From Orenia marismortui DSM 5156 (GTDB taxonomy: Bacteria > Bacillota > Halanaerobiia > Halobacteroidales > Halobacteroidaceae): a stretch of 64,000 nucleotides of DNA. The stretch spans positions 238,640-302,639 of the forward strand of contig NZ_KB900618.1 in NCBI RefSeq assembly GCF_000379025.1. The letters run 5' to 3'. Shown piece by piece: positions 11,309 through 20,006 of this stretch. The position numbers and the translations under genes were made by a program. The notes beneath the pieces were generated by a model. It did no database searches. It saw only the letters and a program-made list of their open reading frames with translations, and was not told where the DNA came from. Position 1 is the first letter of the stretch; the number at the start of each line of letters is the position of its first letter.

Positions 11309-12313
11309 TCAACATATTCTAGGTAATAATTCTCCAACTAAGGCATTAACTATTCTAGTTCCATTAATGCTAGTTTCTAAATAGACTCTATTATTATCAT
11401 CCTCTACTACTTCTCCAATCACTCTCGCTTCTCTTCCTAAATCATTCTTTCTCATAACTTCTAAAACCCTATTACTTTCACTATTATCAACTACTACCAC
11501 TACTTTACCTTCATTAGCTAAATATAAGGGATCAAAACCAGCAATTTGGCAAAGACTTCTGACTTCATCTCTAATCAAAAGCTTCTCTTCCTTTAATTTA
11601 ATACTCACTTTACTCTGTCCAGCAATTTCATTTAAAGTAGTAGCTAATCCTCCCCTTGTAGGATCACGTAATACTTTCACCTTATTAGAATTATCCAAAA
11701 TCTCAACTATCAAATCATTTAATAAAGTACAATCACTTTGTAAACTACTATTCATCTCTAATTCTCCCCTTTGAGTAAAAATACTAGCTCCATGATCTCC
11801 TATACTTCCATTAATTATTATCTTATCTCCTACTTCTGCTCTAGCTCCTCCTAATTTAATATTTCTTTCTAAGACACCTATGCCCGTAGTATTAATATAT
11901 ACTCCATCACAGCTCCCTCTTTCAACAACCTTTGTATCCCCACTAACTATCTTTACCTTAGCCTTTAATGCAGTTACAGCCATAGATTCTACTATTTTCT
12001 CTAACTTATTAATCTCAAATCCTTCTTCAATAATAAACCCTACAGTTATATATAGAGGTCTAGATCCACTCATTAGCAAATCATTAACAGTTCCGCAGAT
12101 TGATAACTTTCCTATATCTCCACCTCTAAAAAATATAGGCTTAACTACAAAGTTATCTGTAGTAGCAACTAATCTTCCCTTAATAAAAGATAACAAGGTC
12201 GAATCATTAGCTTGTAAAAGAAGATCATTCTTAAAGGATTTATAAAAAATCCCTTCTATCAACTCTTCAGTCAACTTTCCTCCACTACCATGGGCCATAG
12301 TAATTATCTTCAT
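11309..12313 (-). CDS. hypE: hydrogenase maturation factor HypE
   Basis: About 334 residues, AIR-synthase-like fold. It dehydrates a carbamoyl group carried on its C-terminal cysteine to thiocyanate, the precursor of the active-site cyanide ligands. The family's C-terminal LPRIC ending is intact, as is the N-terminal MAHGSGGK. I choose ATG 12313, six bases after an AAGGTG site, over the in-frame GTG at 12322. It is the last gene of hypA-B-F-C-D-E and is followed by a terminator. Confidence 0.95.
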   Translation of the reverse strand: MKIITMAHGSGGKLTEELIEGIFYKSFKNDLLLQANDSTLLSFIKGRLVATTDNFVVKPIFFRGGDIGKLSICGTVNDLLMSGSRPLYITVGFIIEEGFEINKLEKIVESMAVTALKAKVKIVSGDTKVVERGSCDGVYINTTGIGVLERNIKLGGARAEVGDKIIINGSIGDHGASIFTQRGELEMNSSLQSDCTLLNDLIVEILDNSNKVKVLRDPTRGGLATTLNEIAGQSKVSIKLKEEKLLIRDEVRSLCQIAGFDPLYLANEGKVVVVVDNSESNRVLEVMRKNDLGREARVIGEVVEDDNNRVYLETSINGTRIVNALVGELLPRIC

Positions 12314-12318
12314 TAATT

Positions 12319-13413
12319 TCACCTTCTATATTCATAGTAAATATTACAACTTCCTTCTTCTGATACCATACATGGACCTTGAGGATTTAAAGGATTACAA
12401 TCTCTAGCAAACAATTGGCAATCTGATGGCCTCTTCTTTCCTGTTAAAACATCACCACAACTACAAAAAATTTTTTTCTCTTGAGGTACTACCTTAAATT
12501 CAAATTTATTCTCTGCATTAAAGTTTTGATACTTCTCCTTTAATCCTAAACCACTATTTCTTACTAGTCCTAAGCCTCGCCAAGTACTATCTTTAACTTC
12601 AAAAAATTCATTCATTATGGCTATTGCCTTTAAATTACCTTTAGCTTTAACCACTCTACTATACAAATTATCTACTGTAGTAATCCCTTCTTTAACCATC
12701 TTTAATATTCTAGCTAAAGCCATAATAATATCAACCCTTTCAAAACCAGCTATTACTGCAGCTAAGTTATAATTATCTGCTATAAAATTAAAAGCTTGAC
12801 TACCAATGATTGTACTAACATGGCCAGGACAGATAAAGCCATCTATCTCTGATTCTAAATCTAATATTAATTTTTCAATTATAGCTGGCATAGTCTTTAA
12901 TGATAATAAGATAGAATAATTATCTAGCTTTAATCTATCTGCTTCCTTAAGACTTAAAGCTATTATAGGAGCTGTAGTTTCAAAACCAATAGCTAAGAAG
13001 ACAACTTCTTTATCATAATTTTTCTGAGCAATTTTTAGAGCTGATATAGGAGAATGAACTACCCGTACATCCCCTCCCAAAGCCTTTATCTGCTGTAAAG
13101 AACTATTATTTCCTGGTACTTTTATAAAATCAGCAAAGCTTGTAATTATCACATTACTCTTCTTAGCAAGTTCAATAGCTTTGTCAATATAAATTTGAGT
13201 AGTAACACAGATAGGACAGCCTGGACCAGAGATTAAAGTTATATGATCAGATAATAATTTAGGAATACCACCAACAAAGATAGCCCTAGTATGAGTTCCA
13301 CAAACTTCCATAATCTTTACCTCTTTGTCAAAATTTCTAATTTGATTAAGCATTTCTTTAAGTAAATCTATATCCCTAAATTTATTATAATAAGCCATTA
13401 TTTTTTTCACCAT
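12319..13413 (-). CDS. hypD: hydrogenase maturation factor HypD
   Basis: Up to 364 residues. It is the iron-sulfur scaffold on which, with HypC, the Fe(CN)2CO unit is assembled. Conserved motifs are present: MEVCGTHT, SGPGCPICVT, and the C-terminal cysteine-rich tail (CSCGDVL, DCQLFARDCNP, GPCMVSEEGSC) that binds a 4Fe-4S cluster. The ATG at 13413 overlaps the end of hypC; an ATG at 13398 preceded by a GGTG site is equally possible. Confidence 0.95.
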   Translation of the reverse strand: MVKKIMAYYNKFRDIDLLKEMLNQIRNFDKEVKIMEVCGTHTRAIFVGGIPKLLSDHITLISGPGCPICVTTQIYIDKAIELAKKSNVIITSFADFIKVPGNNSSLQQIKALGGDVRVVHSPISALKIAQKNYDKEVVFLAIGFETTAPIIALSLKEADRLKLDNYSILLSLKTMPAIIEKLILDLESEIDGFICPGHVSTIIGSQAFNFIADNYNLAAVIAGFERVDIIMALARILKMVKEGITTVDNLYSRVVKAKGNLKAIAIMNEFFEVKDSTWRGLGLVRNSGLGLKEKYQNFNAENKFEFKVVPQEKKIFCSCGDVLTGKKRPSDCQLFARDCNPLNPQGPCMVSEEGSCNIYYEYRR

Positions 13414-13633
13414 CTACATTATTGACTCTTCCTTGTTCTAGTAATCTTTTGGTCTCTTGGGCAGCTTTTTGATTTAATTTCTCAATAGCACAACCACAGT
13501 GAATTAAGAGATAATCTCCTAGCTTGACATAATCTATTAAATCAATATTCACCCTTTGACTAACTCCACCAAAATCTACAATAGCCATCATCTCATCAAG
13601 CTCAATCACTCTTCCTGGTATTGCTATGCACAT
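13385..13633 (-). CDS. hypC: hydrogenase maturation chaperone HypC
   Basis: 82-residue HypC/HupF chaperone that carries the iron unit from HypD to the large subunit. Function needs cysteine as the second residue (exposed after Met removal), so the start is the second of two adjacent ATG codons (13633), giving MCIAIPGRVIEL. The RBS AAGGAG lies nine bases ahead. The gene starts inside the 3' end of hypF and overlaps the start of hypD, a sign of tight translational coupling. Confidence 0.95.
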   Translation of the reverse strand: MCIAIPGRVIELDEMMAIVDFGGVSQRVNIDLIDYVKLGDYLLIHCGCAIEKLNQKAAQETKRLLEQGRVNNVDGEKNNGLL

Positions 13634-15896
13634 CATTTTTAGCTCCTTTTTGATAATTAGCAATTACTAACTGTCCTACTGCTAATCCTCCATCATTAGA
13701 AGGTAGTTTGCTGTGAAAATATACCTCAAATTCTTTTGCCACTAATTGCTGATAAATACCTTTTAATAAAATTTGATTTTGAAAGACTCCACCACTTAAA
13801 GCAACTAGTTTTGTCTTATATTCATCTCTAATCAACTCGCAGAGAGCAACTGAAAAGCTAATTATAGTATTGTGAAACTTTCTGGCAATCACTTCTTTAT
13901 TTAGCCCTAATTTAATATCATCAACTATAGCTTTAATTAAAGGGATTGTATTGATTAGATAATAACCATTATTATTTTCAATCTGATAAGCATATTTCCT
14001 TGCTTCTGTAGCAGTAGCAAGACTTTCTAACTTAATAGCTCCTTGTGCTTCATAGCTAATCACTTCTCCTAAAGCAATTAAACTTGCTACTGTATCAAAT
14101 AAACGTCCCATACTAGAAGTTTCAGGAGAATTAATATCTGCTTTGATTAATCTAATTACCTTCTCAATCCTCTCTATTTTAATATCAATTAATTCATTAA
14201 ATAATTCTAAATCAGCTCCATAAGCTTGATAGAGATGACTAATAGCTATCCTCCAGGGTTCTTTAATAGCTTTTTCTCCCCCAGGCAGCTTAATATAATT
14301 CAACTGCCCTACCCTTTTAAATTTAGTATAATCGCAAAGTAAAAATTCCCCTCCCCATAACCTACCATCTGTCCCCACCCCTGTTCCATCAAAAGCCAAA
14401 CCAATTACCTGTTCACTAACCTCATTCTCTACCATACAACTAACTATATGAGCATGATGATGCTGAACTGGAACCTTCTCCTCCTTCTGATTTTGGGCAA
14501 ATCTTGTAGTTAAGTATTCTGGATGTAGGTCATGAGCGATAATTTGAGGATTAATTTGATAGAGATCTTTAAGGTGTCTAATCACCTGTTTATAGTTTTG
14601 ATAGCTCTCTAAATTATCTATATTACCTATATGTTGACTTAGAAAAATATAATCTGACTTAGCAATAGCAAAGGTATTTTTAAGCTCAGATCCACAAGCT
14701 AAAGTCTCTTTTAAACCATTAAATTTAATAACTAAAGGTGTATAACCTCTTCCTCTCCTAATTAAAGTTTCTTGACCTAAAATAATTCTTGAAACTGAAT
14801 CATCAACTGGAGTCTTTATCTCACGGTCATGTAATAAAAAGTAATCAGCAAGCTCTTTTAAATTATCTAAAGCTCCTTGATTTCTATATTCCAATGGTAA
14901 TCCACTCAAATTAGCACTGGTCATTACTAGAATTTCTAAGCCCTCCTCAAATAATAATTCATGTAAAGGAGTATAGGGTAACATCACCCCCAAATAATTA
15001 TTATCAACAGAAATATTAGCTGGCAAAGAATTATTCTTTCGCTTTAATAATAAAATTGGTCTTTTAATTCCTGTTAAGATCTCTTCTTCCTGAGCATTAA
15101 GATAGCAATATCTCTTAGCCACTTCTAGATTTTTCATCATCAGAGCAAAAGGCTTATCTGCTCTTCTCTTTCTAAGCCTTAACTTATTAATAGCAACTTC
15201 ATTCTTTCCATCACAAGCTAAATGAAAACCTCCTAAACCCTTAATAGCAATTATCTTTCCTTTTTGAAGTAAGTTGATAGTTTGTTTTAGTGGATCTAAT
15301 ACTAATTTACTCCCTGAATCATCTGCTAAATAAACTTGAGGACCACAATTAGGGCAAGCATTGGTTTGAGCATGGAACCTCCTATTACTAAGGTCTTCAT
15401 ACTCTTCTCTACAGCTATCACAGATCTTGAAATCTTTCATAGTAGTTACTGCTCGATCATAGGGCAAAGCTTCAATTATAGAATAACGTGGACCACAATT
15501 AGTGCAATTAGTAAATGGGTATTGATAACGGCGATTATTACAATTATTTATCTCTTCATTACAATCTGAACAGATTGCTATATCTGGGGAGATTAAGGTT
15601 ATATCTTTTCTATTAGTTGAACTTTTCCTAATACTAAAACTACCATAACCTTTTAAATGCAACTCTTTAACCTCTACACTATCTATTTTGGCTAAAGAAG
15701 GTGTATTTGAGTGAATAAGAGATAAAAAAGAATTGATTTTTTCCCTCTCACCTTCGATATCAATAACCACTCCATTTGAAGTATTATTAATCCAGCCTGC
15801 TAAATTATATTTAGCTGCTAAGTTATAAATAAAAGGTCTAAAGCCAACTCCCTGCACTATTCCTCTAACCTCAATTCTCTTACAAATTTTGACCAT
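13602..15896 (-). CDS. hypF: carbamoyltransferase HypF
   Basis: About 764 residues in the standard order: acylphosphatase domain (VRGIVQGVGFRPF near residue 15), two zinc-finger CxxC repeats (CSDCNEEI, CTNCGPRY, CDSCREEY, CPNCGPQ), a YrdC-like domain, and a C-terminal Kae1-like domain with HHAHIVSCMVE and FDGTGVGTDG. It transfers the carbamoyl group to HypE. I prefer ATG 15896 over GTG 15908 because HypF proteins usually begin close to the acylphosphatase motif. Confidence 0.95.
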   Translation of the reverse strand: MVKICKRIEVRGIVQGVGFRPFIYNLAAKYNLAGWINNTSNGVVIDIEGEREKINSFLSLIHSNTPSLAKIDSVEVKELHLKGYGSFSIRKSSTNRKDITLISPDIAICSDCNEEINNCNNRRYQYPFTNCTNCGPRYSIIEALPYDRAVTTMKDFKICDSCREEYEDLSNRRFHAQTNACPNCGPQVYLADDSGSKLVLDPLKQTINLLQKGKIIAIKGLGGFHLACDGKNEVAINKLRLRKRRADKPFALMMKNLEVAKRYCYLNAQEEEILTGIKRPILLLKRKNNSLPANISVDNNYLGVMLPYTPLHELLFEEGLEILVMTSANLSGLPLEYRNQGALDNLKELADYFLLHDREIKTPVDDSVSRIILGQETLIRRGRGYTPLVIKFNGLKETLACGSELKNTFAIAKSDYIFLSQHIGNIDNLESYQNYKQVIRHLKDLYQINPQIIAHDLHPEYLTTRFAQNQKEEKVPVQHHHAHIVSCMVENEVSEQVIGLAFDGTGVGTDGRLWGGEFLLCDYTKFKRVGQLNYIKLPGGEKAIKEPWRIAISHLYQAYGADLELFNELIDIKIERIEKVIRLIKADINSPETSSMGRLFDTVASLIALGEVISYEAQGAIKLESLATATEARKYAYQIENNNGYYLINTIPLIKAIVDDIKLGLNKEVIARKFHNTIISFSVALCELIRDEYKTKLVALSGGVFQNQILLKGIYQQLVAKEFEVYFHSKLPSNDGGLAVGQLVIANYQKGAKNDVHSNTRKSD

Positions 15897-15901
15897 ATTA
15901 T

Positions 15902-16591
15902 TTAGCACCCACTAGATAATAGCTTATTGTTAATTTCATCCTTTAAATAATTTTCAAAGCCTAAAGTACCTCTTTCTTTAATACAAGAAACTTCAAAAAC
16001 TTTAATATCTTCTTTTAAAGATCTAAGATCTTCATACAACTCATCCATTGAAAAGTCAGTGTAATTTAATAAATCTAGCTTATTAACTACAACTGCCTCT
16101 GAATTTTGAAAGATTAGCGGATACTTAAGGGGCTTATCACTACCTTCAGTTATACTTAATAGTGTTATTTTAATATCTTCTCCTAAATCAAAAGATGCTG
16201 TACATACTAAATTGCCTACATTCTCAATGATCAATAAATCTATCTCTGCTAAATTCAAATCAGATATTGCCTCTGCTATCATATTAGCTTCCAAGTGACA
16301 AGCACCTTTAGTATTAAGTTGAATAACCTCTATTCCCTCTTGTTCAATTCGCTCACCATCTTTAGTAGTATATAAATCACCTTCTATTACTACAATATTT
16401 AATTGATCCTTCATATTCCTAATAATCTTTTCTAATAATGAAGTCTTCCCTGCTCCTGGAGAACCCACTAAATTAATTGTAAAGATCCCTTTCTTCTTAA
16501 ATAACTCCCGATTAACAGCAGCAATTTTGTTATTAGTATCAAATAAATCCTTCATCACAGTAATACTCTTCTTAACGTCAAGTTGCTTCAT
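15902..16591 (-). CDS. hypB: hydrogenase nickel-insertion GTPase HypB
   Basis: 229-residue SIMIBI GTPase with P-loop GSPGAGKTSLLEK, the metal-binding CH of KGACHLEANM, and NKLDLLNYTDF for guanine recognition. It delivers nickel together with HypA. The N terminus lacks the histidine-rich or CxxCGC nickel-storage stretch seen in some HypB proteins, so only the GTPase-domain metal site is present. The ATG lies three bases from the hypA stop. Confidence 0.94.
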   Translation of the reverse strand: MKQLDVKKSITVMKDLFDTNNKIAAVNRELFKKKGIFTINLVGSPGAGKTSLLEKIIRNMKDQLNIVVIEGDLYTTKDGERIEQEGIEVIQLNTKGACHLEANMIAEAISDLNLAEIDLLIIENVGNLVCTASFDLGEDIKITLLSITEGSDKPLKYPLIFQNSEAVVVNKLDLLNYTDFSMDELYEDLRSLKEDIKVFEVSCIKERGTLGFENYLKDEINNKLLSSGC

Positions 16592-16592
16592 T

Positions 16593-16934
16593 TTACTCCC
16601 CCTCTAACTTCTCTAATAATATTTCATCACCACTAATTAAATTATAATTAAACCGCTTACATTCTGGACATATCTTATTAGTAAAATCAGCTTTATATTC
16701 TATTCCACAAAACTGACACTTATTAATAGCTTCTACTCTATCTATTATTAGTTCAGCTCCTTCCACTTTTGTATCCTTAACAAAAAATTGAAAAGCAAAA
16801 TTCAATGATTCATCTTCTACACAACTCATCTCACCTACCTTTAATACTATTTTTGTTACTTTGTCTAAACCATACTTCATGATGTACTCTTGAATAATAG
16901 AAAATAATTGGGTCATCAAAGACATCTCATGCAT
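16593..16934 (-). CDS. hypA: hydrogenase nickel metallochaperone HypA
   Basis: 113 residues. The N-terminal nickel ligands MHEMSL are present, and the zinc site is formed by CQFCG and CPEC (about residues 73-76 and 89-92). It receives nickel and passes it to the large subunit with HypB. It is the first gene of the hyp operon, separated from the hydrogenase structural genes by 190 bp that contain a dispersed palindrome. Confidence 0.94.
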   Translation of the reverse strand: MHEMSLMTQLFSIIQEYIMKYGLDKVTKIVLKVGEMSCVEDESLNFAFQFFVKDTKVEGAELIIDRVEAINKCQFCGIEYKADFTNKICPECKRFNYNLISGDEILLEKLEGE

Positions 16935-17125: not shown

Positions 17126-18535
17126 TCAAAATACCACCTTGCCTTTAACATTCCCCTTAAGATCAAGTACATGAGTAGCACAAGACATACAAGGGTCAAA
17201 GGAACGGATAATTCTCCCTAAAACAGTATACAGCTCTCCTGGATAACGTATCTTAGTTCCTACCATAGCATTTTCAACAGGCCCTAAATTTCCATGCTGG
17301 TCTTTAGGGGAGAAGTTCCAAACTGTTGGAGTGATAATATTATATTTAATTACCTCTTCATCATTAATCTTAGCACTATGTAATAAAGCACCTCGCATAG
17401 CATCATTAGTAGCTATAACTTGATCTTTTATTGGTTCTTTATTCTGCTTGATAGGAGCCTCTTGACTAGGCTTTAATTTAGCTAGCCACTTTATCATTAA
17501 TTCAGTGATTAATAAAGTTTCTAGAGTTCTAGACATAATTCTATCCATTGTTGAAGTTCCACCCTTATATAGCCCATTAATAATTAATCTTGCTAAAGGC
17601 CCAGTCTCAAACTGTTCTCCCTTATACTTAACTGTCTTAACCCAACTATAAGCACTCTCCTTTAAGGGCTCTGGCTCTAGCTCCCCATCATAAATATTAT
17701 CAGCGTCTCCCTCAAACCAAGAGTTAATAATACCTTCATTAATTAAATCAAGATCTACTTCAGCTAAACGATTACCCCTAAGTACTCCTCCCTTCCATAA
17801 ATACTTATCATTGTTAGCACCAAATCTCCACAACCCAAAAGATAATAAACGGCGTGGAGTCACTCCAATTTCAAAATAATCGCTATAAACTCTAGAGATT
17901 AATTTAATATCGGGCAGCATAGTTTTACTAACAAATTGATGAATCTGCTCAACTAAGGATAAAGCTGTATTAATCTTATCTACTGTTGGAGCTACAGCTA
18001 CCCCTCCATGAACAAAACTATGCTGATGAGGGGCTTTTCCACCAAATAATGCTAAAATCTGATGACTCTGCTGAGCAATTTTGATTGCTTTAAAATAATT
18101 ATCTACTAAACACTGATTATCTCTAGGTTTTAAACGAGCATCTAATAAATTTTGACCATGGAAAGGAGGTCGATTAGGCATCTTTACATAATCAGGAAGA
18201 CTGAAAAAATAAATTTGCCTGATATGATTCTGTAAAAAATCTGCCCCATACATAATGTTCCTTAAGTATTGAGCATCCTCTGAAATCTGATTATCATATA
18301 ATTCATCTAGTAGATAGCTTCCAATAGCACCATGAGCCAAAGAACAAATTCCACAAACTCTTTGTGTCATGTACACAGCATCAGTAACATGTCTATCTCT
18401 CATAATCCATTCAAAACCTCTAAACATCGTACTACTAGCATCAGCATCTACTACTATATTATTATCTATAGTTAATTTAACTGATAAAATTCCACTCAAG
18501 CGAGTAACAGGACTAAAAGTTACCTTCTTACTCAT
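17126..18535 (-). CDS. [NiFe] hydrogenase large (catalytic) subunit
   Basis: About 469 residues. It holds the nickel ligands in two motifs: RVCGICSLAH near residue 62 (L1) and DPCMSCATH near the C terminus (L2). A 14-residue tail (VLDLKGNVKGKVVF) follows the final His; the maturation endopeptidase should remove it after nickel insertion. GGKAPHQHSFVHGG is the usual middle motif. The start is ATG 18535, ten bases after GGAGG and overlapping the end of the small-subunit gene; the longer reading frame upstream only runs through that gene. No cytochrome b partner is nearby. Confidence 0.95.
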   Translation of the reverse strand: MSKKVTFSPVTRLSGILSVKLTIDNNIVVDADASSTMFRGFEWIMRDRHVTDAVYMTQRVCGICSLAHGAIGSYLLDELYDNQISEDAQYLRNIMYGADFLQNHIRQIYFFSLPDYVKMPNRPPFHGQNLLDARLKPRDNQCLVDNYFKAIKIAQQSHQILALFGGKAPHQHSFVHGGVAVAPTVDKINTALSLVEQIHQFVSKTMLPDIKLISRVYSDYFEIGVTPRRLLSFGLWRFGANNDKYLWKGGVLRGNRLAEVDLDLINEGIINSWFEGDADNIYDGELEPEPLKESAYSWVKTVKYKGEQFETGPLARLIINGLYKGGTSTMDRIMSRTLETLLITELMIKWLAKLKPSQEAPIKQNKEPIKDQVIATNDAMRGALLHSAKINDEEVIKYNIITPTVWNFSPKDQHGNLGPVENAMVGTKIRYPGELYTVLGRIIRSFDPCMSCATHVLDLKGNVKGKVVF

Positions 18536-19478
18536 CTCTTCTTTCCTCCCTCTTATCCTCTTTTTCTCTATTCCTCTTCTCAGATAAAGGAGTAAAGAAG
18601 GGGGTTGATCCATCTGGAAAGTCTGGATTAGTACAACCAATACATGGAGTATTAGCTTCCACTGGCCAATTTTCGTTAAGCCATTGGCGATATGGACAAT
18701 CGGCTAAGGTTTTGGGACCTACACAGCCTTGGCTAAACATACACTCAATATCCCCTAGCTTTTCTGCAAAATTACCTCGATCAAAATAAGAACGTCGCTG
18801 ACAATGGCGGTGAATAGTATATCCATAAAATAAAGTTGATCTCCCTAATTCATCAAGCTCTGGCTTACCATACATCAATAAATAGGCTAAAGTACCCACA
18901 AACCATTCTGGATTTACTGGGCAACCACTTACCTTAATTATCTCTCTATCTAAAACCTCACTTACCCCAACTCCACCAGTAATATTAGGTTTAGCAGCTG
19001 ATGGACCACCAAAACTAGCACAGGTTCCAATTGTTACAACATATTTAGCTAATCCTCCTAACCACTTTACCGCTTCTAAAGCAGTAATCTTTTCTCCTTC
19101 AGTTTCAATAACTATATTATATAAGCCATTAGCATTAGTAGGAATCGCACCTTCTACTACTAATATAAACTCTCCCTTCTTATATCTAGTAACTTTTCGT
19201 AAAATATCTAAAGCATATTTACCTTGAGCTGCCATAAAGGTATTACTATATAAAAGATCAATCATCTCTTCAAAAACCTGCCCTAAATAAGGATAGCTTG
19301 TATTCATAAACGAAATATTGTTGTCACCACTGTCACTTGTTTCTAACCATAGAACTGGCAATTTACCACTATTCTTATCTTTATATCCCCTAACACCAGT
19401 TAAGATATGTTGACTCAATTTATAATCTTTACTATTTCTTAAGATATAGCAGCCTTTTACAAACTGATCTCTATCCAT
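18528..19478 (-). CDS. [NiFe] hydrogenase small subunit with altered proximal-cluster motif
   Basis: 316 residues and no Tat signal, so the enzyme is probably cytosolic. Medial and distal cluster ligands are all visible: HRHC (His and Cys), CMFSQGC, DCPYRQW, and TPCIGC. Two proximal ligands also remain, in GTCASFGG and SGCPVNPEW. The N-terminal motif that normally gives the other two (CxxC, or CTGD/CSGN in some groups) reads WLETSDSGDNNISFMN here, without any cysteine (residues about 45-60; codons AGT GAC AGT GGT GAC). It is translationally coupled to the large subunit. Confidence 0.92.
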   Translation of the reverse strand: MDRDQFVKGCYILRNSKDYKLSQHILTGVRGYKDKNSGKLPVLWLETSDSGDNNISFMNTSYPYLGQVFEEMIDLLYSNTFMAAQGKYALDILRKVTRYKKGEFILVVEGAIPTNANGLYNIVIETEGEKITALEAVKWLGGLAKYVVTIGTCASFGGPSAAKPNITGGVGVSEVLDREIIKVSGCPVNPEWFVGTLAYLLMYGKPELDELGRSTLFYGYTIHRHCQRRSYFDRGNFAEKLGDIECMFSQGCVGPKTLADCPYRQWLNENWPVEANTPCIGCTNPDFPDGSTPFFTPLSEKRNREKEDKREERRDE

Positions 19479-19541: not shown

Positions 19542-20006
19542 ATGAATAAAATAAAATATGATATTTTAATAATTGGATTAGGAAATTTAATCATGTCTGA
19601 TGATGGAGTTGGAATCCATGTAATTAAGAAACTACAACAAGAAAATTTTGGGGAGAGAATCTTAGCCTTGGAAGTAGGAACCTCACCTCTTTATTATTTA
19701 GAGGAAATAAGTAAAGCAGCGAAGGTAATTGTAATTGATGCGGTTAAAGGAGGTGAAAAACCTGGCAGCATCTATAGGCTAGCTGAAGAAGATTTTAAAT
19801 CTAGCCAAAATATTATAAGAGATTTTCATGAGTATTCATTATTAAATGTAATTAAATTAGCCAGAGAAATCACAGGACTGCCTGTTAATTTTATAGTCTA
19901 TGGGATAGAACCTAAAAATTTGAATTTAGATCAGAAGCTATCTAAAATTGTAAGCAAATCACAACCTAATTTATTAAAACTTATAAAAAAAGAGTTAGAG
20001 GTTTAA
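19542..20006 (+). CDS. [NiFe] hydrogenase maturation endopeptidase (HyaD/HycI family)
   Basis: 154 residues. It has the family N terminus ILIIGLGNLIMSDDGVGIHV (with the nickel-sensing Glu replaced by Asp in the SDDGVG motif, as is common), then VIVIDAVKGG and IYGIEPKNL. It cuts the C-terminal tail from the large subunit encoded on the opposite strand. No ribosome binding site is visible before the ATG, and AT-rich -10-like sequence lies close to it, so a leaderless or very short-leader transcript is possible. Confidence 0.9.
   Translation: MNKIKYDILIIGLGNLIMSDDGVGIHVIKKLQQENFGERILALEVGTSPLYYLEEISKAAKVIVIDAVKGGEKPGSIYRLAEEDFKSSQNIIRDFHEYSLLNVIKLAREITGLPVNFIVYGIEPKNLNLDQKLSKIVSKSQPNLLKLIKKELEV

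Follow-up and report, generated by a model that had tools for sequence, protein, structure and literature searches.

The window, a 64,000-nucleotide stretch of the Orenia marismortui DSM 5156 genome, encodes both subunits of a [NiFe] hydrogenase together with a maturation protease and six hyp genes (Table 1), in agreement with the initial annotation, which had also described the catalytic-subunit motifs as intact. The large subunit retains RVCGIC and DPCMSC (matching RxCGxC and DPCxxC), and its gene is the sole PF00374 gene found in this genome. The start of the large subunit is most likely the ATG at 18535, which overlaps the small-subunit stop, rather than that of a longer TTG ORF, and the two genes are therefore probably coupled. 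The same genome also yielded six matches to Fe_hyd_lg_C ([FeFe] hydrogenase-type; G000 C1, C4, C6; L093-L097).

Table 1 Hydrogenase genes in the window and the proximal-cluster features of the small subunit
Feature	Position in window	Strand	Remarks
[NiFe] hydrogenase small subunit	18528..19478	-	316 aa; ORF; Pfam, TIGR00391 and PDB matches
Altered proximal-cluster loop	19317..19340	-	codons T47-N54 (T S D S G D N N)
Asp49	19332..19334	-	GAC; proposed stand-in for first proximal Cys; D 25/28, C 2/28, G 1/28
Asp52	19323..19325	-	GAC; proposed stand-in for second proximal Cys; D 28/28
Cys153	19020..19022	-	third proximal ligand, invariant
Cys186	18921..18923	-	fourth proximal ligand, invariant
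[NiFe] hydrogenase large subunit	17126..18535	-	469 aa; catalytic Cys intact
HycI/HybD-type maturation protease	19542..20006	+	divergent from small-subunit gene
hypA	16593..16934	-	
hypB	15902..16591	-	
hypF	13602..15908	-	
hypC	13385..13663	-	
hypD	12319..13413	-	
hypE	11309..12322	-	AIRS domains

The small-subunit ORF includes WLETSDSGDNNISFMN, and its product matched the Pfam families NiFe_hyd_SSU_C (2.6e-29) and Oxidored_q6 (2.9e-21), exceeded the cut-off of TIGR00391 (hydA) and matched [NiFeSe]/[NiFe] small subunits in the PDB at 2.4e-53. An AlphaFold2 model of the small subunit alone, built from 17 sequences, had a mean pLDDT of 64, with good values at residues 1-40 and in much of 60-150 and values below 50 in the Fe-S domain; despite this weak domain, Foldseek retrieved [NiFeSe]/[NiFe] small subunits with the model (E 2e-13). 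Judged by these matches, the protein is a [NiFe] hydrogenase small subunit, Group 1-like. The best PDB matches, the Group 1 [NiFe]/[NiFeSe] enzymes of Desulfovibrio and Desulfomicrobium (4kl8, 1cc1, 4u9h), share with it both subunits, the active-site motifs, a HycI-type protease, and the ligands of the distal (HxxC...C...C) and medial clusters.

The difference from these enzymes lies at the proximal cluster, the first electron relay beside the [NiFe] active site, which affects catalytic bias and oxygen tolerance. The Desulfovibrio and Desulfomicrobium enzymes have a CxxC, four proximal cysteines in all, and are exported, whereas the protein in the window and its close relatives keep two of these cysteines and have no Tat signal. 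The segment WLETSDSGDNNISF is cysteine-free at the first two proximal-ligand positions of [NiFe] hydrogenases, and the loop after the WL motif reads W44-L-E-T-S-D49-S-G-D52-N-N-I-S-F. The initial annotation had reported the cysteine-free stretch AGT GAC AGT GGT GAC, and it is borne out by the ORF and by codons 47-54 (ACA AGT GAC AGT GGT GAC AAC AAT). Its description of the remaining ligands as intact holds as well: the later proximal cysteines are kept in GTC153ASFGG and SGC186PVNP, the distal (H223, C226, C246, C252) and medial (C261, C279, C282) ligands are invariant in a 17-member alignment, and Cys153, Cys186 and every medial and distal cysteine are present in all 28 members of the wider clade described below. 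Cys153 and Cys186 are thus all that is left of the four proximal cysteines of Group 1-like enzymes. The extra proximal cysteine pair of the O2-tolerant six-Cys [4Fe-3S] hydrogenases is absent from the 28-member clade, in which no extra cysteine is conserved apart from the non-invariant Cys10. The text of the HydDB paper lists no proximal-ligand motif by class.

Relatives were collected by scanning a single genome from each species and by further whole-genome searches. At 60-86% identity they come from Halanaerobiia, Desulfotomaculaceae, Desulfallaceae, Syntrophomonadaceae, Sporomusa, Syntrophaceticus, Heliobacterium and others, so the substitution, which the initial annotation had proposed to look for in related Halanaerobiales, recurs in Halanaerobiia and far beyond. 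Of 398 genomes drawn evenly from the phylum, about 10 carried the altered form, and the enzyme occurs across many anaerobic Bacillota. All 28 distinct members match ET[SNC][D/C/G]S[G/C]D[N/D]N and lack the usual CxxC; Ser50 and Asn54 are invariant together with Asp52, and Gly51 is found in 27 of the 28. At residue 49, the two cysteines belong to L020 and L030 and the single glycine to L006. A copy from the same genus, 86% identical to that of the window, shares the cysteine-free loop. The motif is beyond chance, given the universal lack of CxxC, the otherwise nearly invariant loop and the matching same-genus copy, and the double loss is fixed throughout a Bacillota clade and is not peculiar to one genome. 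Besides its DSGD copy, the genome with the same-genus copy (G001) carries three canonical [NiFe] small-subunit genes of the CxGC type in tandem (L026, L028, L029), and these are missing from the genome of the window.

In a maximum-likelihood tree of small subunits from which the motif columns had been left out, the altered members, 28 in all, formed one clade (support 100/97). CSGD is the motif of its sister group (L033, L034, L064), CxGN or CxGD that of the next lineages and CxGC that of the outgroup. The proteins with three cysteines and one Asp or Asn (L033, L034, L064 and the Desulfotomaculum ruminis-type L066), whose Asp or Asn takes the place of the second ligand, are therefore the nearest in the tree; they keep the first cysteine, whereas most clade members have Asp at residue 49 and CSGD is seen in L030 only. 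With CxGD/CxGN in the sisters and CxGC in the outgroup, this looks like a stepwise loss from four cysteines through three plus Asp/Asn to two, with the clade at its end, and the two-cysteine, two-aspartate site would derive from a 3Cys/1Asp (C-S-G-D) ancestor.

The clade also differs from the deeper lineages in the predicted location of the enzyme. The small subunit of the window has no RRxF (Tat) motif. Among the clade members and their closest sisters, no hydrophobic N-terminal stretch or C-terminal TM helix was found, but one or both of these features are present in most deeper CxGD/CxGN sequences, and the more distant of the proteins with three cysteines and one Asp or Asn retain the Tat signal and/or the helix. 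The genes that recur around the clade members are the divergent protease and the two subunits only, with hyp genes in some, and no membrane partner gene follows the large subunit at the clade loci. A cytochrome b partner has been reported for the Desulfotomaculum ruminis hydrogenase (PMC3569383), whose type (L066/L088) falls in an outgroup; the clade, in contrast, is without a conserved membrane partner. As the Tat signal, the anchor and a conserved membrane partner are all missing, the lineage appears to have shifted to a soluble, cytoplasmic enzyme. The N-terminus (residues 1-15, 19434-19478) reads MxxxxFxxLC and resembles a former Tat signal (TRRxFLKLC in outgroups); it looks like such a signal turned into a predicted soluble helical extension.

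The reading that we prefer, with a probability of roughly 0.55, is that of a soluble, presumably cytoplasmic two-subunit [NiFe] hydrogenase, maintained by selection, whose proximal Fe-S cluster would be bound through Cys153 and Cys186 and through two oxygen ligands supplied by the D49-S-G-D52 loop (2Cys/2Asp), the site having evolved from a C-S-G-D ancestor. The invariance of Cys153 and Cys186 argues that a cluster is still bound, likely as [4Fe-4S] and possibly with one Fe fewer as [3Fe-4S]. The oxygen ligands would most likely be Asp49 and Asp52, acting alongside the two cysteines, and electrons would flow from the NiFe site through the proximal, medial and distal clusters to a soluble carrier. 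Residue 49 reverted to cysteine twice, in one member giving CSGD, which suggests that this residue lies at the cluster. Put more generally, it is somewhat more likely than not that a whole lineage of cytoplasmic [NiFe] hydrogenases passes electrons via a two-cysteine proximal centre, whether this is a naturally occurring 2Cys/2Asp Fe-S cluster or a metal centre of lower nuclearity or non-standard type.

Natural single Cys-to-Asp changes are known at proximal position 1 in Methanosarcina barkeri (YP_305362) and at position 2 in Geobacter metalloreducens, and single Asp substitutions in the Alteromonas hydrogenase leave measurable activity (Yonemoto et al. 2014, PMC4070099); we count both in favour of 2Cys/2Asp ligation. 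Against it, multiply substituted Alteromonas variants (distal/medial combinations) were inactive (PMC4070099). The M. barkeri and G. metalloreducens proteins each have Asp at one proximal position, whereas the clade has lost both N-terminal cysteines, and no published case of these two being lost together was found in the open-access literature searched. A conserved natural enzyme with two of four cysteine ligands offers a test of the minimum number of cysteines for such a cluster, and the graded series CxGC, CxGD/CxGN, CSGD and DSGD allows ligand chemistry, redox potential and the loss of export to be compared.

An unlikely alternative is a [3Fe-4S] or otherwise reduced-nuclearity proximal cluster bound by Cys153, Cys186 and Asp52 only, with a raised potential, as in Huc of Mycobacterium smegmatis (7utd), whose proximal cluster likewise is without the standard fourth cysteine ligand. 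It would account for the invariance of Asp52 against the variation of residue 49 (D/C/G), and the Gly49 of L006 indicates that residue 49 is dispensable there, which leaves room for a three-ligand [3Fe-4S] site. Huc has three [3Fe-4S] clusters, as assigned by density, the fourth coordinating residue and EPR (PMC10017518). However, all but one of the 28 proteins have D or C at residue 49, suggesting a ligand role, and Huc is distant in sequence, on a distant branch (the 7utd match reaches 3.4e-23 only). Huc also differs from the clade in being aerobic and membrane-associated via HucM.

The assignment to Asp49 and Asp52 also depends on how the loop is aligned, and its register is ambiguous, a point against ligation by these residues. 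Both multiple (MAFFT) and profile (hhalign) alignments leave the loop gapless, and Ser50 and Asn53 then fall on the old cysteine positions. It is quite unlikely, in our judgement, that these two residues are the ligands or that the cluster is left with two protein ligands, although Ser50 does not vary and either N or D is found at residue 53, which recalls the alternation of CxGN and CxGD in the outgroups. In pairwise comparison, L030 aligned to the CSGD sisters with a one-residue shift, its C49-S-G-D being the sister motif, and a gapless loop would turn the conserved Gly ahead of the second ligand into Asp. Cysteines are enriched in loop columns 48-54 (4 of 196 cells vs 4 of 6993 elsewhere; Fisher p = 3e-5, indicative only as the sequences are related), and among these four none is at residue 50 or 53 and two are at 49. 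The latter, in L030 and in L020 (C49-S-C-D), use codons TGC/TGT vs GAC/GAT for Asp, that is, two-base changes. We therefore favour the shifted register, which from the aligned sequences would put Asp49 and Asp52 on the old cysteine positions: L030 reads CSGD like the sisters and aligns with the shift, cysteine came back at residue 49 twice by two-base changes, Gly51 stays ahead of the second ligand, and Asp52 is invariant. L020, from the same family, has two new cysteines in its loop (NCSCDNN, residues 49 and 51), and its large subunit has a stop.

Very unlikely is the reading that the proximal cluster has been lost from a hydrogenase that is non-catalytic or in decay, or that the motif is a sequencing error. 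The frame of the large subunit is interrupted at differing places in six relatives (L007, L011, L013, L014, L082 and L086, the last corresponding to L020) owing to frameshifts, the absence of a stretch or one in-frame stop codon. Several of the six are metagenome bins, and the interruptions may be bin errors or early decay. Between the window and the same-genus copy, dN/dS was 0.089 for the small and 0.094 for the large subunit, so both are under purifying selection and the enzyme has been kept working, in support of the initial annotation, which had considered it functional. The full maturation set in the window, the intact frames in most members and the invariance of Cys153 and Cys186 also speak against decay, and a pseudogene is not favoured despite the six broken frames. 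A misreading of TGT as AGT, which the initial annotation had raised against its own observation, is rejected because the identical motif is present in many independent genomes. The sequence comparisons lend good support to a functional enzyme whose proximal site is non-canonical.

That another cysteine, for example the N-terminal Cys10 that the initial annotation had also suggested, replaces the missing ligand is highly improbable and was rejected: Cys10 is present in 25 of the 28 members, within a variable N-terminal segment, but it corresponds to the Cys of the FLKLC stretch in outgroup Tat signals and is missing from L059, L067 and L069, which keep DSGDNN. No other clade-specific conserved cysteine was found in the small subunit across the 28 members, and no extra ligand cysteine was apparent in the large-subunit alignment.

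The large subunit itself varies at one site. In its GGKxPHQHS motif, the His of PH, which adjoins the proximal cluster in known enzymes, gives way to Asn or Glu in L001, L003, L004, L083 and L084, five members of the clade, and the His two residues beyond it is invariant within the clade.
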